64,000 bases of DNA from assembly GCA_021463865.1 (NCBI GenBank), contig JAJTXY010000005.1, forward strand, positions 1-64,000, read 5' to 3'. Made by a program: the position numbers and the translations under genes. The stretch is from Anaerolineae bacterium. GTDB taxonomy: Bacteria > Chloroflexota > Anaerolineae > Aggregatilineales > J027. Numbering within the stretch: the stretch's first letter is position 1; every line of letters starts with the position of its first letter. Positions 7,317 through 19,193 of the stretch are shown one piece after another. Below the pieces are notes generated by a model that had not been told where the DNA came from, did not search any database, and saw only the letters and a list, made by a program, of their open reading frames with translations.

Positions 7317-10300
7317 ATGAGGAAGCGCGTCCTACATAGGACATATCATCTGGTCATTATTCTGACCTTGATTATGAGCTTCATGCCTTCCCTAATGTCA
7401 CAGGAATTAAGCCCTGTTAGCACCTCGGATAAGGCGGAAGCTGCAAACACAGACAAACCTGTGGAAAGCACTTCGTCCTCACTCCTCGAAACCAGTTCAG
7501 GAGGAGGTGACACCGACCCGACAGCCCCCGGTCGTCCGGCCTATGCGCCGCCAGATGTAGAGTGTATGGTGAGTTTCGAAGGGACGATTTTCATTGATGG
7601 CGGTCCCGGCACTTACCCAACTCAATTCTATCCTGTCGCTAATGGTGACGTGCAGGACCCGGCTTGGATTAACCAAGACATTACGAGCGTTGTCGGCGAC
7701 CCACCCTTTGTGACCTTAAACCAGCGGCTCGTTCTGTATTTTTCAATCCAGAACACTTCGGAAAATGGCAATCCGAACTGCGCGGTTGGTGGTCACGATG
7801 TTGTGTTGCGAGAACTTGAAGTCCGTGACCGCGATACATTGTATAGGCAGATGTGGAATATTACTGGCACCCCTAGCATCCCCACTGCCGATCCGTTGGC
7901 TAATCTATTTTGGTCAAGTGGAACCCCCGGCGTTCTCAATCGTGGTCAAAATGCTTGGGGATTTATGTTTTTTGATGCTGATCAAGTGTCGAACGTGACG
8001 GGGTTAATTCGCTTCCAAATGATCTGGACGATGGACTCCTGTACGCCCGGTGCGTTAAACGGTAGTTCGTGCTCTGGGGCGATTGGGCCGACGATCAGTG
8101 CTCCATTGGACAGTCAAGGGACGGCGGTACAGGTTCGGGGTCCCCGCGCTCAACTGACCTTTATTGAACCCACCATTGACCCGCCCGTATTTGCCAACCC
8201 TGACCAATTTGTGACCTATATCCTAGAGGTGAACCGTCCCGCTGCCCCTGCAACGACCCAAGATATCGTGGCTGCTGCTGGTGATCCTGCATCTCTTCCC
8301 GATTGTGCGAGTGGCACATTTAATGATGGGAACCCCTATGGCTGGTACGATGGCCCAGATCCATTTACAGCTACTGAAATTGATAACATGGCCTTAAACC
8401 CGCCCATACAGACAGATGGGCCGAGTGGGGTTTATTACTGCTATTTCCGCGTTGAAATGGACACGGCTCTCGCCGATCCGGTTACCGGTCAGTTTGTGTT
8501 TGAGGGCGATGTCATCCTAACGGATATAAATGGTTTTAGTGAAACATTTCATGTAGTGGCCCCGCCTGTGACTCTCCGTATTCCTGAGGTTACGGCCACA
8601 AAGGTCATTGTATCCCCCGCTACTCCGGGACAAGGGGTTTCGATTGGTGGTACAGTTACCTATGAAGTTACCATTCGCAATACTGGTGAGATTCCCCTCA
8701 ATCAAATTTCGGCGATTGATAGCCTAACGGGACCGTTGGTGATTCCACTGAATACCACGCTGGCGGAGGACCCCGATGGAGATGGCCCACTGCAAGGTGA
8801 AGAGATTGTCCTAACCACTTCTTATACGGTCAGGGCGAATGACCCGTCCACACTGGTCAATACAGTGACGGTGACGGCCCATCTCGATTTACCGGGGGTT
8901 AACGACACTGTTTCGGACACTGCCGCTGCTTCGATTCGCGTGATTTCAGAAGATTTGCAGGTTTCGCTGCGTTTGGACACGGTGAATGGCGCACCTTATA
9001 ACGCAGTAACCAATCCACCCGTACCCGGTAGCACTTTGGTTTTCACGACCCTGTACGACAATCGGGGTACGATCAATCTGCATGATCTTCAATACGTTGC
9101 CAACTACCCGACCTATGTAGACGCCCCTGCCCCAACTTATGTCAACTCTGTCATTGGCGCTGGGCTGATTCTGCCCGGTCTGTATGGCGATGCGCCGAGT
9201 GAATCGGCCTCAACATTCACCTATACAGTTCCCGCCTCGTTCCCGCCTGATCCTATCTTCCAGCGAGTGCGAGTACGGGCTTTCCGACCCAACAACACGG
9301 CGGTTTTTTCTGAGGCGTTGTTGGTTATTGACCTCACAAATCCCGATGTAACGATTACAGCGGAGCGCTATCGGTCTACTGATGGTACCGTAGTACCTCC
9401 CGAAGAGGCGGCCCTGCGCGGGGATACCCTCTATTTTAGAGGGACAGTTACGAATGAGTCGGCGTTGGACATATGTGGTGTCGAAATTCGGCAGTATGTT
9501 CGTAATCCGATTACAGGTCTGTTGACACCGGGTAATCCGTTTGTGCTTCCGGCCAGCAATATTATATGGCCCGGATCGGCAGGAACATTGGCCCCATCCG
9601 GATCAGCCGACTTTACAGGCGTAACCTATTTGGTGAATGCCTCCACCCCTGACCCGCTGGACATTGTTTTCGAGGTGTATGCGCCGCAACAAGGTAGCCC
9701 AACCTGTGCCGTCTTGAGCACGCCGCTGGTTGACCGCACAACAGTTTCGGTGGACATTTCAGACGTGCAGATTTCAGCATTCATTCAGGCCCGCCGGGTC
9801 AGTGACAATGCGATTGTCGCCTATGGTCTCTATCCGCCACCTGAAATTACGTATCGTTTTACCTATGTAGCGACCAACGTAGGTGGTGTCCAATTTACAA
9901 TTCAACCCCCATTGGTTTACTGCGTGGGTGGCTATCCGATGACGTGTAATGCGGCATTCCCGACTGATGCCGTTAACTTTATGGATCAAGGGAGTGTATT
10001 TACACCTTTCCAGACACGGACGGACTATTTCGACCTGACATTGCTTGCAGCCGATGCGGGGAATTACACTAATCCGTTCCAAGTTCAGGTCATTCTGAAT
10101 GGTGTAGACGCTGAAGGTCAGAATATCGTTCTTCGGACACTCCTTCAGTTCCCACTTATCTCAAGCGAACTTCCCGGTACACTCACTGGCCCACTCAATA
10201 CTTTAGTGTCGCCAGCCGATCGTGCTCAAGATTTGCTCACGAGTTTGGTGCGTGGCGATGCGGATGTGCCATTCGAGTTTACCTTTGAGAACGAAACCAA

Positions 10301-13300
10301 CACCGTGTTGGAGAATGTGTACATTGTCAACCTGCTTGAAAGCAGTACGACACCGCAAGTGGGGTACTATCAAGTCGGGGCATTTGGCTTCAATGACTAT
10401 TACGAATTATGTACGGTCACTGGCCTAAGTAGTGGTGGGACCCCGAATCCGACTGGCCCCAATACCATGCAGCCGAATGAGATTATCTCCGGAACCTGCT
10501 ATTTCACCTATGCGACGACCATGCCAGCAGGTGATTTCCAGATGCAAGTGTTGGCAGTAGCGAATCGAGTGATTGACCCGACTCAGCGTCTCATCTCAGT
10601 GGTAACATGGGGCATCCGCGAAGTGCCGCATCTGCGTGCCTTGAAACTCGGCCCCGGCAGTGCGGTTGCAACTCAGCCAATCGAATACACAGTTGAGATT
10701 TATAACCAATCCATGTATCAATACGTGGATTTCAACCCCTCGAATGGCTTTACGGATGTTATTCAACCGGAACTAGACCCAAGTACGTTACAGCCTCCCA
10801 ATTTCACCATTGACCCTTCTTGGACGGGCCTAGTTACAAATGCGACAGATCCGACTGTGCCGCCAGTGGCACCCGGTCTCTATCGGTTGCTTGTCCCGCC
10901 AAATCCAACCAGCCCAGCGAGTGGAACGTATCAGCGAAATCCTCCCGGTGGTCAGTTCCCAGATACCTCCTATCGTAATGATGTCACGGTTACGGGGACG
11001 GCTCAAAGTGGCTTGATTGTGAGCGCTACTGCTGCCGCGACGGTGGCGATTACCTGCCCACTGGGGATGTTGGGTTTCTATGGCGATATTCCCGGTGATC
11101 CGTTTAGCGATACCGATGCCCAATTCACACTGGGTGAACGTCAGCGGTTTACATTCTTTATCATCAACATCTCCAATGTGCCGATTACCTTACTCACGGC
11201 GGAAGATGAGATGTATAACCGTGAAAATGGTTTGCCCGCCAATTCGACTGCTTATCCCACCTATCCGCAGTCCTTTACTTGGGATGATCCAGCCCAACCG
11301 GGGGTCATTCCTGTGGATGGGTTCGCGGTTTATGAATACGATGTGATTTTGCGTCCGGAAGATTATCCTGATGGCACAGACCCACAGCGTATTTTCTTTA
11401 CAACGCATGTGAGTATCGCCAATCCACCACCGAACTGCGACGAATTTGACATTCTGTGGTATTTTGACTCACCCAACCCGGTGACGATTGAAAAGAATGT
11501 GACCCCGTCATTGGTCTTCCCCGGCAACGCGGCGACCTATGACATCCAGCTTTTTAATGTCAGTCAAGTTTCAGATATGCAAGTCACGCAGGTGGTGGAT
11601 GACCTTCTCAGCCAATCCCCATTGGTGATGGATTTCACTTCCACCAGCCCAGATGGTCAATCCGGCATATTGGAGGAATTGGGAGAAGAACCCCCCGGCA
11701 GTGATGATAACGCTGCTGTGCTGCTTCAGAACGGTCAGCAAAACTATATCGTTCAACCGGATGATCCACCGACACTGACCAACGAAGCTACGGTCTACTA
11801 TTATCCGATGAATGGCCCAACCTCGGCAGCCCCCGGCACCGTCAATGTTGGCCCACCTGGTACATTCTTTGTCCCGATGGCAACCGGGCCGAGCGCTTTG
11901 CTGTCGAATACCGCCGAAGCGTCTATTGGCACGGCCAGTCCGCTGTCTTGTATCATGGTACCCAGCCAAACCGATGTACCTGCGGGTGGTTTGGTGGATA
12001 TTCTGGTGACGCTGATTAATGGCAGCACAGAATATGACATCACCGCTATCCAATTCACCGTAGCGGATGAAGCGGGTAATCTGATTTTGACCAACTCATC
12101 GCCGGGTGTACCTGCGCCGCTAGACCTGACGCCCGCTAACCGCCAATTTTCGATCAACGTCTCCTACCTTGTTCCAGCGGGTTGGAGCGAGCCGACTATC
12201 ACCATAGACTGTACAGCACGCGGCGTGTTTGAACTGACAGGCGAACTGCTGCCAGATTCGACTACCAGCATTCGTTTGAATGTAGATGCGCCGGAACTTT
12301 TGCTCGAAATGGTGGTGTTTGGCGACCCGGCGTGCCCGCGCATTGATGGCCCAGACCTCGACACCCTGCTTGATGATCCTGATCCGGCTGCTCTCTTGCC
12401 TGACCTTGTACCCCCCGGTACGCCGGACGGTGCTCCAGAGGCCACGGTGAGCCAGACGATTTACTATGGCATCCTGTTGCAAAATACCAGCTTGGGTCTG
12501 AATTTCCAGAACATAGCAATTGACCAAGCAAGCCTGAATAATGGCTTGTCACTTACGGCAGACGTTTCAGCACAACTCAATACGCTTCTGCCGTCACGCC
12601 TACTGGCACCCGGTGAACAAGTGGCTCTGTGTATTCCGTATCAAATCGTTGATCAGACGACAGACCCGCTGATTCACACCCTACAGGTAGCAGCCGAGTC
12701 CGTAGCTCCGACGCCTCCTAACTCGCCTGCAACGCCATTTACACTTCAGGTGGTGGCTACAGTAGATGTTCAGGACTCGAACGTTCGGATCTTTAAACTG
12801 GCGGCACCAACGGTTTCGTTCCCGGGTGATGTGGTCGAATATACGCTCTACATTGAGAACGTGAACACCGACCCGACCCTCGACGCCACGCTGCTGCTTG
12901 ATGACGTTTGGGATTCGCTCCTCGGTGGGCCGTTGGCCGGTGCCAGCTACTGCGGCAACACGGCGACACCACCCGTGAACATACCACCCGCGAACTTGGC
13001 GGTGTGTAATCCGGCGCTGCCTTCGATTCGCTTCGATGACATTGCGGATGGCCTTGATCCCTATGGGTGGACATGGCCCGATAACAACCGACCGGGGGTA
13101 CTTTTCGAAGGGGAATCAGCTTCCTATCGGTATCTGTATACGGTTCAAGACGTTGACCCGAACCCGTTGATTAACAACGCGGGTGTTCGCGCAGTTCTCT
13201 ATGATGCGAATGGCGACCCGGCGACTCCCGCCAACTGGGACGTCCAAATTGATCTCAATGGCGATCCGATTCAACCCACCGATGAGACCTTTGCCTCGGT

Positions 13301-16300
13301 AGCGATTACGGATTCGCAGTTGCTGGTGATCAAAGATGGCCCAGCGACGGCCCCGGCGGGTTCTAATGTGATGTACACGGTTACCGTTGTGAATATTGGC
13401 GATGTGGACGTTGCCAATGTGCAGGTACGCGACGAGGAATACAATCTGGATCGTGGACTGCCTCCGGGAACCTACATGCCGATGACGGAATGCTTCCGTC
13501 AACCTTCTGACCCACCTGTGACCCTTGTGGCAAATGTGGGTACGCTGATTTGTCAATACACCATTACGATGCCGGATGCCACTGAAATTGGCGCTAATCC
13601 AGCGCTTGACCCTTATATCAACACGGCATTTGCGATAGGGGAAATCTCCAATGGTGGACAACTAGTACCGCTACCTAATGAGGGTTCAGACACCGCCATT
13701 GTGGACATCTTGGTTCCCGGCTTATTCTTGGACAAGATTCCAAGTGTTGGCAGTGCAGCCATTGGTGACACTGTAACCTATCGGATCATCGCTGAAAATA
13801 CGGGTGATGTACCGCTGCGTCTTGACCAAATTGTGGATGTTCCGCCGCCGCCATCGGTGACACCAGCATTCTCAGTGCCGAGTGTCCGTATTAATTCTAC
13901 GGATCAATCGCCCACCTCATGTGGTGTGACGGGGACTTCAAGTAACTTGCCTGTGGTGCTGCAACCCGGTGATGTAGCTTGTGCTACCGTGCAGTTAGTG
14001 ATACCGAATCCGGCACCCGCCAGTGAATATATCAATACCGTCCGTGTTAATGCGACCTCCGACCCCGGTGGCGCCAATGAAGCCCCACTAGTGGATAGCA
14101 CGAGTGGTTCAGTAGATGTGCGTAATCTAGGTATCGTGGTCGAAAAACAGGCATATGACTGCGACCCGCTGGTGTGTCCAAACCCGCAAATCATCACTTC
14201 GATCGATGAGGGTGTTACCTACTACTACGGCATCACTGTCACGAACACAGGCGATGAGCCTTTGGATATGATCGAATGGCGCGACCCGCTCTTTGACAAC
14301 AACAACTGGCAGCAGTTGGTGGATGCTTTCGATAACCCAGCTGACCCGGCTGATACGACGGCCTTGGACATTGGGGAGACCCTTCCCATCGCATCTTATC
14401 CTTGGGTGCCAAACTACGCGCGTGATGGTGCTGTTTTGACCAACCGAGTGGACGCACGAGGCCAAGAGGCCACCACAGGCAATTTCACGCCAATTCGCAG
14501 CGATACAACGCAGGTCTTCATCCTGCCAACGGCGCTGCAAATTACCAAGCGTGCTTGCGTGGACATCAGTGGGAATGGGACACCGCCCGCCAGCTTTAAC
14601 CCATGCCCAGTCAATACCCCAACGGCAGTTCGTCCCGGTGGAACCATCTGGTATGAGGTTACGATCACGAACCCCTCCACGACAGTCACAGTAACGAATG
14701 TGGCAGTTACGGATACCCTGCAAGGGGCTTGGGCCGCCGCGCCTACCACGCTTGGGCCGGGGCAAACTGACACATGGATTTATGAAGGTGCTCCCGTGTC
14801 TGGTGCGCTGGTCAATGTTGTCAATACGGTGACAATAACCGCAACTTCCAACAACTTCACGGTCTCAAGTTCGGACTCCGTCTCCGTGCCAGTGGCGCTG
14901 GGTGAACTCTCCGTTCTAATTACCGAAGACAGTGGTCGTTCTACCGCTCAGGTTGGCGACTTGTTGAACTTCACTGTGTTGGTACAGAACCTTAGCAGCA
15001 CTCAGACGATCTCGTTTATCAATGTGGGGGTGCCGTTCTATAGCCCCAATTTCTTGAACCCAGTCGCGTTTGATCTTGCACCCGGCGAGACTTCGGTACC
15101 GTTTAGGTTCCAATACACGGTGACGCCTGCTGATAATACGATGGTCTTTGCCGCGATTGCCCAAGGTATCTTGCAAGGCAATCAGATAACGGCCCAGAGC
15201 AGTTGGACGGTTACTCGTTCAATGAATGGGTTGGCTGTAACCAAGGCTGCCGACACAAACTATGCGTCATTGGGGGAAACGGTCAATTACACCATCACAG
15301 TAACTAACGACAGTGGTAACGCGATCACGGGACTGACAGTCACGGATCCTTTGCTGCAAAATCTACCAGCTTGGACTTCTCCAGCTTGGCCTTCAACCCT
15401 AGCTGCTGGTCAGTCCATCACTCGTACCTTTGCGTATGTGGTTAGTGCCCCGATTCCGTCGAACCCCATCGTCAATACGGTGACGGTCACAGGAACGGTC
15501 AATGGTGTGGTAACAACGGTACAGGCTGGCCCAGTGGCGGTCTATATCCCCGACGGTAATTTGTTGGTGACCAACACGCCGAGTGTATTGGATGCGCTGG
15601 TGGGTGATATTGTCTCCTTTACCTATCGCATCTGTAACTTGGCCGACGGTACGCCTACACCACCGAACAATCAACCGATCACTAGCATCACATTGACGGA
15701 CAATCTCGGCCCGATAACATTACCCGGCTTTGATTTCAGCCTTGACCCCGGTGAATGTTATGAAACGGCACGCTTAAACGTCGAGTTGTTTGCGACAGAT
15801 GTACCCGTCTATACGATGTCGGTGACGGCGACAGGCTCCCAGTTTGATGGTGTTGGCGATGTGGCGCTGGCGCAAACCGTGTCACGGGATGTCAATGTCC
15901 GTCAACCCGGCCAAAACTTGATGTTTAATGTTACGGCAGTGCCGAATCCTGTAGTCTATACCGGTACGCCTGTACCCGTGCAGTTCAACTTTACGCTGCA
16001 AAATATCGGGACGACGGCCCAAACGATTACAGGCATCTTGGACAATAGCCCAACGGCACTCTGTACAGCGTACAGCCCCGTCCCAACCGCACCCGCCAAC
16101 GCGACCCTAGACCCCGGTGAAATTCTGGCGTTTACCTGCAATTACACCTATCCGGGTACACCTGACCCGATTGACGGTATCTGGACAGCGAATATGGCCT
16201 CCGGTGACACGGCGACGGCGACTATCTCGATTCCAGTCGTCGCTGATCCCACCGCGGCGATCATCATTTCCCAAGTGGAAACGAATCCAGCAGTGGGTGT

Positions 16301-19193
16301 ACCGGGTGGCGTTGTCACCTACACCTATCACGTTCGTAACGTCAGCGGTGCAACGGTCTTAGATGTTCGGTTGGATCATGACCCGGCCAACGATTTACAA
16401 TGTGCGTGGTCGGCTGTTGATTTCGGCTCTAATCCGCTCTGGCTCGGAACTGCCAGCCTAGCAGTGGCTGCTGAAATGACTGCCCAAGCTACCTGTGATA
16501 TTTCTACTACAGCGGCACCGGGCAGCACCGCCACGCACGTGATTGAGGCCTATATTGGTGCGGCTGTTACACCAGTAGATACGGCAACGATCAATACGTT
16601 GATTCAGCCGCCCCTGACGGTCAGTGCGCCGACCTCGGCCTTCACCGCCACCCCGGGTACCAATATCATAGCTTGGCGTGTAGGGGCTGGTTATGCAGTC
16701 AATATCTCGTTCGATATCACAAACTCCAGTAACTCGTTGCAGGTCACAGGCATTGTGCCGGAAATGTTGGTTGATGGAGCAGTCGTTTGCGCAAGTGGGT
16801 TCCAATACTCACTGCCCGCGAATCCGAATCCCATCACGTTCAATGGGACGCTGAACCCGAATGCGACTATCCGGGTGACGTGCCTCAACTACATGCCAAC
16901 GGTGGCGCTTGCCCCACTTGCAACGGTGGATGTAGCCGCAACAGGCTTTGTACAAGGCGTCAGTGTCAGCGATGATGCAACAGCCGACTTCCCGGTTTAC
17001 GATCTCGGTTTTACAGTCGAGTTGACGGCTGATCCGACGGCGGCAGATATTGGCGATACGGTCAACTTTACGCTTACGTTGACCAATACGGGCACATCAC
17101 CGCTCTTCTTACCGCCAGCAAGCCAAGACCCGGTAACAACTGGACGTTTGGATAACCCGACTGCGCCAGATGTGTTAGGTGATCTCTATGCTGCTCTGAA
17201 CACAGTCTGCTTTAGCAGTGGTTCGCTTGCCCCCGGTGCAACATGTGTACTGGCCTACAACGACCCCGCACTGACGAATGATGAGTTGACCTACATCATA
17301 GATCAGGCTGACCCGGCGACGATTACCTTCTTGGTTGGCATTACGCTGTGGAGCGATCAACCTGTTGCTCCCGCCACAACGCCGGCCTTTGAAATTGCGA
17401 ATCAGGATACGGTGGAGATAACAGTCAACCAACCCGTCGTCCCCGCCATCAATGCCTTTGGTCTGGCTGCTAATCCAAATCCGGGAGTGGTCGGAAATCA
17501 AATTGTGTTTACCGCGAGTATCCAAAACAGCGGTACACAGGTGCTGACCAATCTCACCGCGACACTCCAACTGACGCAGTTGAGCTTCACCAATGCTGTT
17601 GGTGACAATGGCGGCATTGTACTGACAGGCGGACACAACCAAACGCCACTTCCTACCATTACGATGGTTATCAATGACGCCGACGGTACGTTAAACCCCG
17701 GTGAAGTTGCTACGGCCACCGGATATTGGGTGGCGGATCGTGTCGGGTCATTCCGCGCGACTCTGACGGCTACTGGACAGGCTGGTACTACCCAAGCGAC
17801 GGCTACCGATACGGAATTGTTAGAGTTCCGCATCAACAGCAGTGCGATTGCTACGGCGACTCCAATTACCCCCGGAGCAATTACACCAACCGCGACAACC
17901 GCGACAACCGATCCGGATGGCAACCCGCTTGATCCGAATGCGCTTGACCCGACAATCACCAAGACTGTAACCCCCGAATCGGCTCTGCCCGGTCAGGATG
18001 TCACCTTCACTGTGACCATCACCAATGGCAGCACAACCGCAATGGCAAACGTCACGGTGACCGATAACATGCCGCTCGAATTGACGATCAATAATGCGAC
18101 AACATCGGTTGGGGCGTCGGTGGTTAGTGGACAACTTATCACGGTTACGACGGGGCAATTGAACCCCGGTCAACGTATCACGGTGGTGATTATTGCCCGA
18201 GTGAACGACGATGTTTCAATACCGTCGCTGATTACCAATGATGCTTGTGCGGCTGTGACAGGTCGTACACAGGTCTGCGCGAGTGTTGAACTGCCTATCG
18301 GAGCAGATGCCGAAGCCTTACCCACAACAGGGCAGGGCGAACCGGAATCTGCCGATCTCGACATAGCGACTCAGGGGGTGGCAGGAGTTGCAAGCCGCCC
18401 TTTTGGAGTGGCCCCGTTGTTAATGCTTGGTCTGCTGGCCCTCTTGAGTACCGGGCAGATCAATCGGCAGCGGTGGCTCTTGGGTGGTCTCGCGGTACTC
18501 ATTATCGCAACTATTGCGGGCGCCCTCGTTTTGGTGGGTAGTGGAGACGAGCAAGATGATACTACGGGGACACCCCAAGTGGTGCTCCCCCCCGGTGTTA
18601 CTCCAACCGCCTCACCAACACTTGACCGTGCGCCGACCTTAACGCCTTTGGCAACCGGGGAGTCACTGGAAAGCCCAGTGGCCCCCACGCCCCTAGATGC
18701 GCCGCCAACGCTGCGTCCATCACCAACGCCATATATCCCCCCGACACCTTCGGGTGATCGGCGGATAGATATTCCAAAACTGAATTTCACCGATCCTGTG
18801 CCGATTGTGGAGTTACCCTATTCAGATGCTGCGTGGGATGTGAGCAATTTGGGACACAGCGTTGGTTGGCTAGAAAAAACAACATGGATGGCACCCACAT
18901 GGGGTAATACCGTGTTGGTCGCGCATGTCCAGCTTGCCAATGACGACCCCGGCCCATTTAAACGTTTGAATGAGCTTGAGGTGGGTGATGATATTTACGT
19001 CTACGATGGCCCTTACAAATATGCCTTCCGCGTCACCGAAATTACCACTGTGAACGCGACGGCGATTGAAGTGACCCATCCTACGGTTGACCCTGTGTTG
19101 ACGTTGTTGACCTGTACTAACTGGGATTTTGCGCGTGGGGTTTATGCGGATCGTCTTATCATCCGTGCCGCGCCACTCTTAAACGTAAACTAA
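7317..19193 (+). CDS. Giant secreted DUF11-repeat protein with LPTTG motif and C-terminal sortase domain
   Basis: A 3958-residue protein in one uninterrupted 11.9-kb frame. ATG at 7317 has GGAGA upstream. Residues 1-28 form a signal sequence (RKR, then a hydrophobic stretch). The body is a chain of about twenty DUF11-type beta modules recognisable by the recurring entry strand, a G-D/E-x-V-x-Y/F turn, then TNTGD- or NxG-like strands; examples start near residues 428, 548, 1105, 1388, 1824, 2001, 2134, 2272, 2407, 2531, 2638, 2749, 2867, 2981, 3234, 3379 and 3546. After the last module come LPTTG (3668-3672), two membrane helices (about 3697-3713 and 3721-3741) separated by the basic loop INRQRW, a Pro/Thr-rich linker, and a sortase domain (3815-3958) with His3870, Cys3933 and Arg3946. 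The expected topology puts both the repeats and the sortase outside. Likely a cell-surface stalk or adhesin carrying its own anchoring enzyme; function inferred. Confidence 0.9.
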   Translation: MRKRVLHRTYHLVIILTLIMSFMPSLMSQELSPVSTSDKAEAANTDKPVESTSSSLLETSSGGGDTDPTAPGRPAYAPPDVECMVSFEGTIFIDGGPGTYPTQFYPVANGDVQDPAWINQDITSVVGDPPFVTLNQRLVLYFSIQNTSENGNPNCAVGGHDVVLRELEVRDRDTLYRQMWNITGTPSIPTADPLANLFWSSGTPGVLNRGQNAWGFMFFDADQVSNVTGLIRFQMIWTMDSCTPGALNGSSCSGAIGPTISAPLDSQGTAVQVRGPRAQLTFIEPTIDPPVFANPDQFVTYILEVNRPAAPATTQDIVAAAGDPASLPDCASGTFNDGNPYGWYDGPDPFTATEIDNMALNPPIQTDGPSGVYYCYFRVEMDTALADPVTGQFVFEGDVILTDINGFSETFHVVAPPVTLRIPEVTATKVIVSPATPGQGVSIGGTVTYEVTIRNTGEIPLNQISAIDSLTGPLVIPLNTTLAEDPDGDGPLQGEEIVLTTSYTVRANDPSTLVNTVTVTAHLDLPGVNDTVSDTAAASIRVISEDLQVSLRLDTVNGAPYNAVTNPPVPGSTLVFTTLYDNRGTINLHDLQYVANYPTYVDAPAPTYVNSVIGAGLILPGLYGDAPSESASTFTYTVPASFPPDPIFQRVRVRAFRPNNTAVFSEALLVIDLTNPDVTITAERYRSTDGTVVPPEEAALRGDTLYFRGTVTNESALDICGVEIRQYVRNPITGLLTPGNPFVLPASNIIWPGSAGTLAPSGSADFTGVTYLVNASTPDPLDIVFEVYAPQQGSPTCAVLSTPLVDRTTVSVDISDVQISAFIQARRVSDNAIVAYGLYPPPEITYRFTYVATNVGGVQFTIQPPLVYCVGGYPMTCNAAFPTDAVNFMDQGSVFTPFQTRTDYFDLTLLAADAGNYTNPFQVQVILNGVDAEGQNIVLRTLLQFPLISSELPGTLTGPLNTLVSPADRAQDLLTSLVRGDADVPFEFTFENETNTVLENVYIVNLLESSTTPQVGYYQVGAFGFNDYYELCTVTGLSSGGTPNPTGPNTMQPNEIISGTCYFTYATTMPAGDFQMQVLAVANRVIDPTQRLISVVTWGIREVPHLRALKLGPGSAVATQPIEYTVEIYNQSMYQYVDFNPSNGFTDVIQPELDPSTLQPPNFTIDPSWTGLVTNATDPTVPPVAPGLYRLLVPPNPTSPASGTYQRNPPGGQFPDTSYRNDVTVTGTAQSGLIVSATAAATVAITCPLGMLGFYGDIPGDPFSDTDAQFTLGERQRFTFFIINISNVPITLLTAEDEMYNRENGLPANSTAYPTYPQSFTWDDPAQPGVIPVDGFAVYEYDVILRPEDYPDGTDPQRIFFTTHVSIANPPPNCDEFDILWYFDSPNPVTIEKNVTPSLVFPGNAATYDIQLFNVSQVSDMQVTQVVDDLLSQSPLVMDFTSTSPDGQSGILEELGEEPPGSDDNAAVLLQNGQQNYIVQPDDPPTLTNEATVYYYPMNGPTSAAPGTVNVGPPGTFFVPMATGPSALLSNTAEASIGTASPLSCIMVPSQTDVPAGGLVDILVTLINGSTEYDITAIQFTVADEAGNLILTNSSPGVPAPLDLTPANRQFSINVSYLVPAGWSEPTITIDCTARGVFELTGELLPDSTTSIRLNVDAPELLLEMVVFGDPACPRIDGPDLDTLLDDPDPAALLPDLVPPGTPDGAPEATVSQTIYYGILLQNTSLGLNFQNIAIDQASLNNGLSLTADVSAQLNTLLPSRLLAPGEQVALCIPYQIVDQTTDPLIHTLQVAAESVAPTPPNSPATPFTLQVVATVDVQDSNVRIFKLAAPTVSFPGDVVEYTLYIENVNTDPTLDATLLLDDVWDSLLGGPLAGASYCGNTATPPVNIPPANLAVCNPALPSIRFDDIADGLDPYGWTWPDNNRPGVLFEGESASYRYLYTVQDVDPNPLINNAGVRAVLYDANGDPATPANWDVQIDLNGDPIQPTDETFASVAITDSQLLVIKDGPATAPAGSNVMYTVTVVNIGDVDVANVQVRDEEYNLDRGLPPGTYMPMTECFRQPSDPPVTLVANVGTLICQYTITMPDATEIGANPALDPYINTAFAIGEISNGGQLVPLPNEGSDTAIVDILVPGLFLDKIPSVGSAAIGDTVTYRIIAENTGDVPLRLDQIVDVPPPPSVTPAFSVPSVRINSTDQSPTSCGVTGTSSNLPVVLQPGDVACATVQLVIPNPAPASEYINTVRVNATSDPGGANEAPLVDSTSGSVDVRNLGIVVEKQAYDCDPLVCPNPQIITSIDEGVTYYYGITVTNTGDEPLDMIEWRDPLFDNNNWQQLVDAFDNPADPADTTALDIGETLPIASYPWVPNYARDGAVLTNRVDARGQEATTGNFTPIRSDTTQVFILPTALQITKRACVDISGNGTPPASFNPCPVNTPTAVRPGGTIWYEVTITNPSTTVTVTNVAVTDTLQGAWAAAPTTLGPGQTDTWIYEGAPVSGALVNVVNTVTITATSNNFTVSSSDSVSVPVALGELSVLITEDSGRSTAQVGDLLNFTVLVQNLSSTQTISFINVGVPFYSPNFLNPVAFDLAPGETSVPFRFQYTVTPADNTMVFAAIAQGILQGNQITAQSSWTVTRSMNGLAVTKAADTNYASLGETVNYTITVTNDSGNAITGLTVTDPLLQNLPAWTSPAWPSTLAAGQSITRTFAYVVSAPIPSNPIVNTVTVTGTVNGVVTTVQAGPVAVYIPDGNLLVTNTPSVLDALVGDIVSFTYRICNLADGTPTPPNNQPITSITLTDNLGPITLPGFDFSLDPGECYETARLNVELFATDVPVYTMSVTATGSQFDGVGDVALAQTVSRDVNVRQPGQNLMFNVTAVPNPVVYTGTPVPVQFNFTLQNIGTTAQTITGILDNSPTALCTAYSPVPTAPANATLDPGEILAFTCNYTYPGTPDPIDGIWTANMASGDTATATISIPVVADPTAAIIISQVETNPAVGVPGGVVTYTYHVRNVSGATVLDVRLDHDPANDLQCAWSAVDFGSNPLWLGTASLAVAAEMTAQATCDISTTAAPGSTATHVIEAYIGAAVTPVDTATINTLIQPPLTVSAPTSAFTATPGTNIIAWRVGAGYAVNISFDITNSSNSLQVTGIVPEMLVDGAVVCASGFQYSLPANPNPITFNGTLNPNATIRVTCLNYMPTVALAPLATVDVAATGFVQGVSVSDDATADFPVYDLGFTVELTADPTAADIGDTVNFTLTLTNTGTSPLFLPPASQDPVTTGRLDNPTAPDVLGDLYAALNTVCFSSGSLAPGATCVLAYNDPALTNDELTYIIDQADPATITFLVGITLWSDQPVAPATTPAFEIANQDTVEITVNQPVVPAINAFGLAANPNPGVVGNQIVFTASIQNSGTQVLTNLTATLQLTQLSFTNAVGDNGGIVLTGGHNQTPLPTITMVINDADGTLNPGEVATATGYWVADRVGSFRATLTATGQAGTTQATATDTELLEFRINSSAIATATPITPGAITPTATTATTDPDGNPLDPNALDPTITKTVTPESALPGQDVTFTVTITNGSTTAMANVTVTDNMPLELTINNATTSVGASVVSGQLITVTTGQLNPGQRITVVIIARVNDDVSIPSLITNDACAAVTGRTQVCASVELPIGADAEALPTTGQGEPESADLDIATQGVAGVASRPFGVAPLLMLGLLALLSTGQINRQRWLLGGLAVLIIATIAGALVLVGSGDEQDDTTGTPQVVLPPGVTPTASPTLDRAPTLTPLATGESLESPVAPTPLDAPPTLRPSPTPYIPPTPSGDRRIDIPKLNFTDPVPIVELPYSDAAWDVSNLGHSVGWLEKTTWMAPTWGNTVLVAHVQLANDDPGPFKRLNELEVGDDIYVYDGPYKYAFRVTEITTVNATAIEVTHPTVDPVLTLLTCTNWDFARGVYADRLIIRAAPLLNVN
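18318..18332 (+). other. LPTTG sorting-signal motif (residues 3668-3672)
   Basis: A canonical LPxTG pentapeptide follows the last DUF11 module and precedes a hydrophobic segment by about 24 residues. That segment is followed by a positively charged loop (NRQR). This is the order of a Gram-positive cell-wall sorting signal, except that the chain continues through a second helix into a sortase domain. The gap between motif and helix is longer than usual. Confidence 0.6.
18759..19190 (+). other. Sortase catalytic domain of the giant protein (residues 3815-3958)
   Basis: The last 144 residues show the sortase barrel order: RRIDIPKLN at the start, WGNTVLVAHV with the catalytic His3870, TLLTCTNWD with the nucleophile Cys3933, and YADRLII with the active-site Arg3946. 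All three catalytic residues are present. The subclass (D, E or F-like) cannot be decided by eye. There is no separate sortase gene next to this one. Confidence 0.85.

Follow-up and report, generated by a model that had tools for sequence, protein, structure and literature searches.

Results

A DUF11-type repeat protein with an LPxTG motif and a sortase domain in one open reading frame

At positions 7317-19193 on the forward strand of the window (the whole stretch of 64,000 nucleotides that was analysed) a single uninterrupted open reading frame of 3958 codons is present, with the sequence GGAGAA located 7 nt 5' of its ATG. The flanking genes are ordinary and all lie on the opposite strand, with an oligopeptide ABC transporter to one side and molybdopterin genes and a Ser/Thr kinase to the other. 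The genome belongs to the Anaerolineae, and its close relatives were assembled from metagenomes and are listed as Chloroflexi and Anaerolineae (CFX5, CFX10, MAG_03). The same continuous frame was found in the separate assemblies of L058 (the record of L006) and L059 (the record of L007), and in those of L008 and L009 it is continuous across the last 3635 residues. Since several separate assemblies contain it, an assembly artefact as the source of the fusion was ruled out. The following features were assigned.

7317..19193 (+): whole gene, 3958 aa (signal peptide, DUF11/DUF7507 stalk, LPTTG, membrane hairpin, Pro/Thr linker, sortase)
7317..7403 (+): signal peptide, approximately residues 1-29 (MRKRVLHRTYHLVIILTLIMSFMPSLMSQ); from the sequence, hydrophobic segment at residues 9-27 (15-33 in L058)
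8589..18281 (+): stalk of about twenty DUF11/DUF7507-like modules, approximately residues 425-3655, ten with a lysine at the isopeptide position; from Pfam, TIGR01451 and a strand-motif count
18318..18332 (+): LPTTG, residues 3668-3672, the sole LPxTG of the chain; from the sequence, conserved in relatives
18405..18458 (+): membrane helix 1, approximately residues 3697-3714; from hydropathy (3700-3718 in L058, own numbering)
18459..18473 (+): basic cytoplasmic loop INRQR, residues 3715-3719, counterpart of the basic tail of a sorting signal; from the sequence and comparison with relatives
18474..18536 (+): membrane helix 2, approximately residues 3720-3740, counterpart of the N-terminal helix of stand-alone sortases; from hydropathy and comparison
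18537..18764 (+): Pro/Thr-rich linker, residues 3741-3816; from the sequence
18765..19172 (+): sortase domain PF04203, residues 3817-3952; from Pfam and alignment
18924-18926, 19113-19115 and 19152-19154 (+): catalytic codons of His3870, Cys3933 and Arg3946

The order and numbering of these elements, from the signal sequence to the three catalytic residues, agree throughout with the first-pass annotation. The Pfam model Sortase (PF04203) matched residues 3817-3952 with an E value of 4e-20 and 72 bits against a curated cut-off of 26.6. His3870, Cys3933 and Arg3946 are all present and invariant across an alignment of fusions of this type, and the domain is under purifying selection (pN/pS 0.08 in comparison with L009). 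The NCBIfam models for classes C, D, E and GN gave 30.5, 27.8, 24 and 19.9 bits, all below their cut-offs of 160, 165, 160 and 158, as was also the case for the other Anaerolineae sortases tested. For the stalk, Pfam recognised six stretches of DUF7507 and four of DUF11, and TIGR01451 seven stretches; as the strand-motif count yielded 21 raw matches, a few of them probably spurious, 'about twenty' modules is a fair description. No adhesive domain was recognised in the 3958-aa protein by Pfam.

LPTTG, helix 1 and the basic INRQR follow each other in the order of a sorting signal. The spacer of approximately 25 residues between motif and helix exceeds that of the plain sorting signals encountered in this study, and the signal does not lie at the C-terminal end of the chain, as LPTTG is followed by 286 residues that include the sortase. 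The anchor models of Pfam and TIGR (Gram_pos_anchor, LPXTG_anchor) gave nothing over cut-off in the window genome, where they also miss plain LPATG tails; they give matches in genomes without a sortase and are unsuited to counting sorting signals here. An AlphaFold model of residues 3659-3958, built from five near-identical sequences, reached a pLDDT of 37 and carries no docking or reach argument.

The LPxTG motif accompanies fused sortases in Anaerolineae

To search for homologues, the C-terminal 311 residues were compared with 298 genomes of the class, and loci were fetched where the sortase match sat in a long frame. This yielded 35 Anaerolineae frames of more than 450 aa with a scored C-terminal sortase domain, in which the 160 residues before the domain were inspected. 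[LI]PxTG was present within this distance in 33 of them, where 0.73 would be expected from shuffled stretches, and in none of 20 stand-alone sortases obtained from the same search. The conservation of the motif is therefore specific to fused sortases. One of the two exceptions (L053) has VPKTG at the same place, the other (L073, 505 aa) is not obviously of this kind, and L055 is a further case that carries ILPKTG. A search for LPxTG by DNA pattern returned chance-level matches only. The LPxTG-sortase fusion is widespread in Anaerolineae; it recurs across dozens of related species, which nearly always keep the tag, and this recurrence makes it probable that the fused proteins attach themselves to the cell surface.

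Two architectures were distinguished. In the window type (LPxTG, membrane helix, basic loop, membrane helix, linker, sortase) the order for which the first-pass annotation had proposed a homologue search was recovered in three families of the taxonomic order: in G212 and G232 of the window's genus, in G107 of another family and in G270 and G146 of a third. When this type is aligned, nothing ahead of the membrane helices is invariant except the L, P, T and G of the motif. The more frequent type lacks a transmembrane helix between motif and enzyme (no-TM type); it reads LPxTGFAPG and the sortase follows approximately 25 residues on (24-33 in nearly all). Across 27 aligned no-TM sequences the P, T, G and F of LPxTGF are as invariant as the catalytic His and Cys. 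The ectodomains are diverse (DUF11, SdrD_B, beta-helix and another kind in G575), and a signal peptide-like start was seen in most of the no-TM proteins whose N-terminus was inspected. When a profile of this type was run against a 400-genome sample of the phylum, matches above approximately 200 bits spanned the motif and lay nearly all in longer frames, whereas other sortases scored at most about 116 bits with alignments beginning after the motif, leaving a clean gap. In G575, which is 97% complete, the only PF04203 match is a fused sortase (L154:394-2118, 575 aa) with a Thr/Pro-rich linker and LPETGF.

The first-pass annotation had named absence of the motif from homologues that keep the sortase as an observation that would speak against its reading. 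What was found is the reverse: nearly all fused homologues, in both architectures, retain the motif but not its surroundings. This conservation, far beyond chance in otherwise strongly diverged sequences, renders it hardly conceivable that LPTTG is a functionless leftover of the fusion or arose by chance, and it supports the earlier proposal of a sortase that would act on LPxTG motifs of its own kind.

In the no-TM type, the nearly constant spacing and the FAPG conserved behind the motif could also be read in another way. N-terminal lids are an established feature of class C sortases, and the LPxTG might in a similar manner fill the active site as a pseudosubstrate that regulates the enzyme without being cut. 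The cleavable Thr-Gly is invariant, the same motif is borne by a separate substrate protein where the two parts are encoded by split genes (see below), and motif and enzyme are kept apart in the window type by the membrane hairpin and a long linker. We therefore consider such a role very improbable and favour the motif as a substrate.

Tandem pairs of giant LPxTG-sortase fusion genes were observed at L072 (contig C50 of G089) and at positions 898000-911500 of contig C1 of G253 (L056, L075). In G130, about 2 kb ahead of an intact fused gene, a sortase-like remnant interrupted by three stop codons was noted (C13:85268-85489); it is perhaps a decayed tandem copy.

Split-gene counterparts and origin of the fusion

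In three other genomes (G048, G278 and G231) a stand-alone sortase gene lies on the same strand behind the gene of a DUF11 protein whose C-terminus is made up of LPETG, a hydrophobic helix and a basic tail. The DUF11 proteins comprise 531, 2254 and 945 aa as read, and the gaps to the sortase gene are 12, 46 and 110 nt, respectively. Inspection of about 35 stand-alone sortase loci revealed such pairs at three of them, so that the pairing of adhesin and sortase is not general. The stand-alone sortases of this kind have a hydrophobic segment at the N-terminus, followed by a Pro/Thr-rich linker and then by the catalytic domain. If the two split proteins are joined end to end, the result is exactly the architecture of the window protein, the former basic tail being the cytoplasmic loop. 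The hairpin is explained in this way and the topology is fixed, in support of the earlier placement of repeats and sortase both outside, on either side of the hairpin. With these counterparts in view, the window gene seems to have arisen by joining an LPxTG adhesin to the sortase dedicated to it.

In G272, a small protein (L150:5344-5853, +) ends in IPESG, a hydrophobic stretch and RRGR, 9 nt before a sortase gene; this is possibly a sorting signal of variant form next to the sortase that belongs to it.

In a tree of the sortase domains, the no-TM type fell into one group with the exception of one long-branch row, and the window type appeared at two places among stand-alone sortases. These positions suggest that the fusion arose repeatedly. 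AU tests are compatible with single origins as well, as they rejected neither a single clade for the window type (p 0.24) nor a single clade for all fused sortases (p 0.28).

Other sortases and LPxTG proteins in the window genome

Four other PF04203 sortases are encoded in the window genome. Moreover, two more DUF11 proteins with plain LPATG, transmembrane helix and basic tail were found, one on contig C23 and one on C57 (L163:2409-5741, +, 1111 aa; L164:2571-6467, +, 1299 aa), neither with a fused or an adjacent sortase; this list of LPxTG proteins rests on a DUF11 search and is incomplete. Their tails indicate that LPxTG serves as a sorting signal in this organism, and both proteins are possible trans substrates. 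Given these sortases and LPATG proteins, action in trans in either direction is possible.

On another reading, one of the four stand-alone sortases, any of which may be able to do so, cuts LPTTG, and the fused sortase serves other substrates such as the LPATG proteins or is spare. Most genomes with a fused sortase also hold a stand-alone one of approximately 300-345 aa, which fits such a division of labour. It leaves unexplained the link of LPxTG with fused sortases in both architectures, with near-fixed spacing in the no-TM type, and the fact that the only sortase of G575 is a fused one. We regard processing in trans as unlikely; the spacing in the no-TM type and the fused sortase of G575 favour action in cis, and self-processing by the fused sortase is likely from these comparisons.

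Lysines and possible polymerisation

The first-pass annotation had also named a self-polymerising fibre as a possible outcome. In such a fibre the sortase would join the LPTT of one chain to a lysine of another to give a pilus-like polymer. The whole chain of 3958 residues contains only 17 lysines. Ten of them lie in the repeat region (8589-18281), each at the start of a module, which is the isopeptide lysine position of DUF11-type domains according to the isopeptide triad defined previously (PMC12617251). This leaves K39 and K47 of the N-terminal tail as the only ectodomain lysines outside isopeptide positions. L058 and L059 both retain K39, K47 is missing from L058, and the homologues in G107 and G270 have their lysines at quite different places. 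No pilin motif was recognised in the 3958-aa protein. Class C is the polymerising class of sortases, and with 30.5 bits the fused domain stays far below the class C cut-off of 160. As the repeat lysines are all at isopeptide positions and the sortase is so distant from class C, self-polymerisation is unsupported by the sequence, and despite the two free lysines we judge it distinctly improbable. Nine transpeptidase-domain matches were obtained in the window genome, which makes peptidoglycan a plausible acceptor.

Discussion

We propose that the window gene encodes an adhesin-sortase fusion that probably processes itself. The chain would be exported by Sec and cross the membrane twice, with repeats and sortase both outside. 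Cys3933 would then attack the Thr3671-Gly3672 bond of its own chain or of a neighbouring copy, the adhesin would be handed to an amine of the envelope, the likeliest acceptor being a peptidoglycan stem peptide, and the hairpin with the sortase would be left behind in the membrane. Points that weigh against this proposal are the four other sortases of the genome, the long spacer between LPTTG and helix 1, which makes the reach of the enzyme in cis less certain, and the small number of split pairs.

The system can be related to several known ones. With class A-type anchoring by a membrane sortase it has in common the LPxTG, the membrane helix, the basic stretch, a sortase with His, Cys and Arg, and the topology; here, however, substrate and enzyme form one chain and a loop between two helices takes the place of the basic tail. 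Pilus clusters with dedicated class C sortases resemble the split pairs in G048, G278 and G231 in that a sortase gene lies beside the LPxTG substrate to which it is presumably dedicated, whereas the window protein is fused, misses the class C cut-off and has no recognised pilin motif. The CLIPPER (DUF11/DUF7507) fibrillar adhesins (PMC12617251; PMC8286594) share the signal peptide, the tandem Ig-like stalk, the lysines at isopeptide positions and the sorting motif, but not the C-terminal sortase after the motif. As both adhesin surveys limited their search for sorting motifs to the 50 C-terminal residues (PMC12617251; PMC8286594), they would miss the fused form. Engineered sortase-LPETG fusions (BISOP) cut themselves (PMC2901362) and likewise have enzyme and LPxTG site on a single chain; they are man-made, with the sortase on the N-terminal side and no membrane parts, in contrast to the natural fusion with its C-terminal sortase.

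In the literature searched, which included few subscription journals, no published description of a natural LPxTG-sortase fusion was found, only engineered fusions or passing mentions. The protein does not stand alone, though, and belongs to a widespread Anaerolineae kind with split-gene counterparts. The natural fusion is a real and well conserved form of sortase-substrate system that has apparently not been described before.

More tentatively, and with somewhat less than even confidence, the fusions may be members of a general self-sorting system of Anaerolineae, in which a C-terminal LPxTG-sortase cassette is carried by many different ectodomains and acts in cis, once per molecule. In the no-TM type the enzyme would take the place of the membrane-retention signal and would be released.

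Sortases are known as separate enzymes that each serve many substrates. If this more tentative reading is true, each of these surface proteins would carry its own single-use anchoring enzyme and would be a natural counterpart of the engineered self-cleaving sortase fusions, possibly one that evolved more than once. The self-processing reaction is directly testable, and the proteins may offer natural templates for self-cleaving sortase tools. To our knowledge, surface attachment in Chloroflexota has been little studied; if each substrate has its own sortase and the motif is strongly selected, the view of surface display in this phylum would have to be revised.
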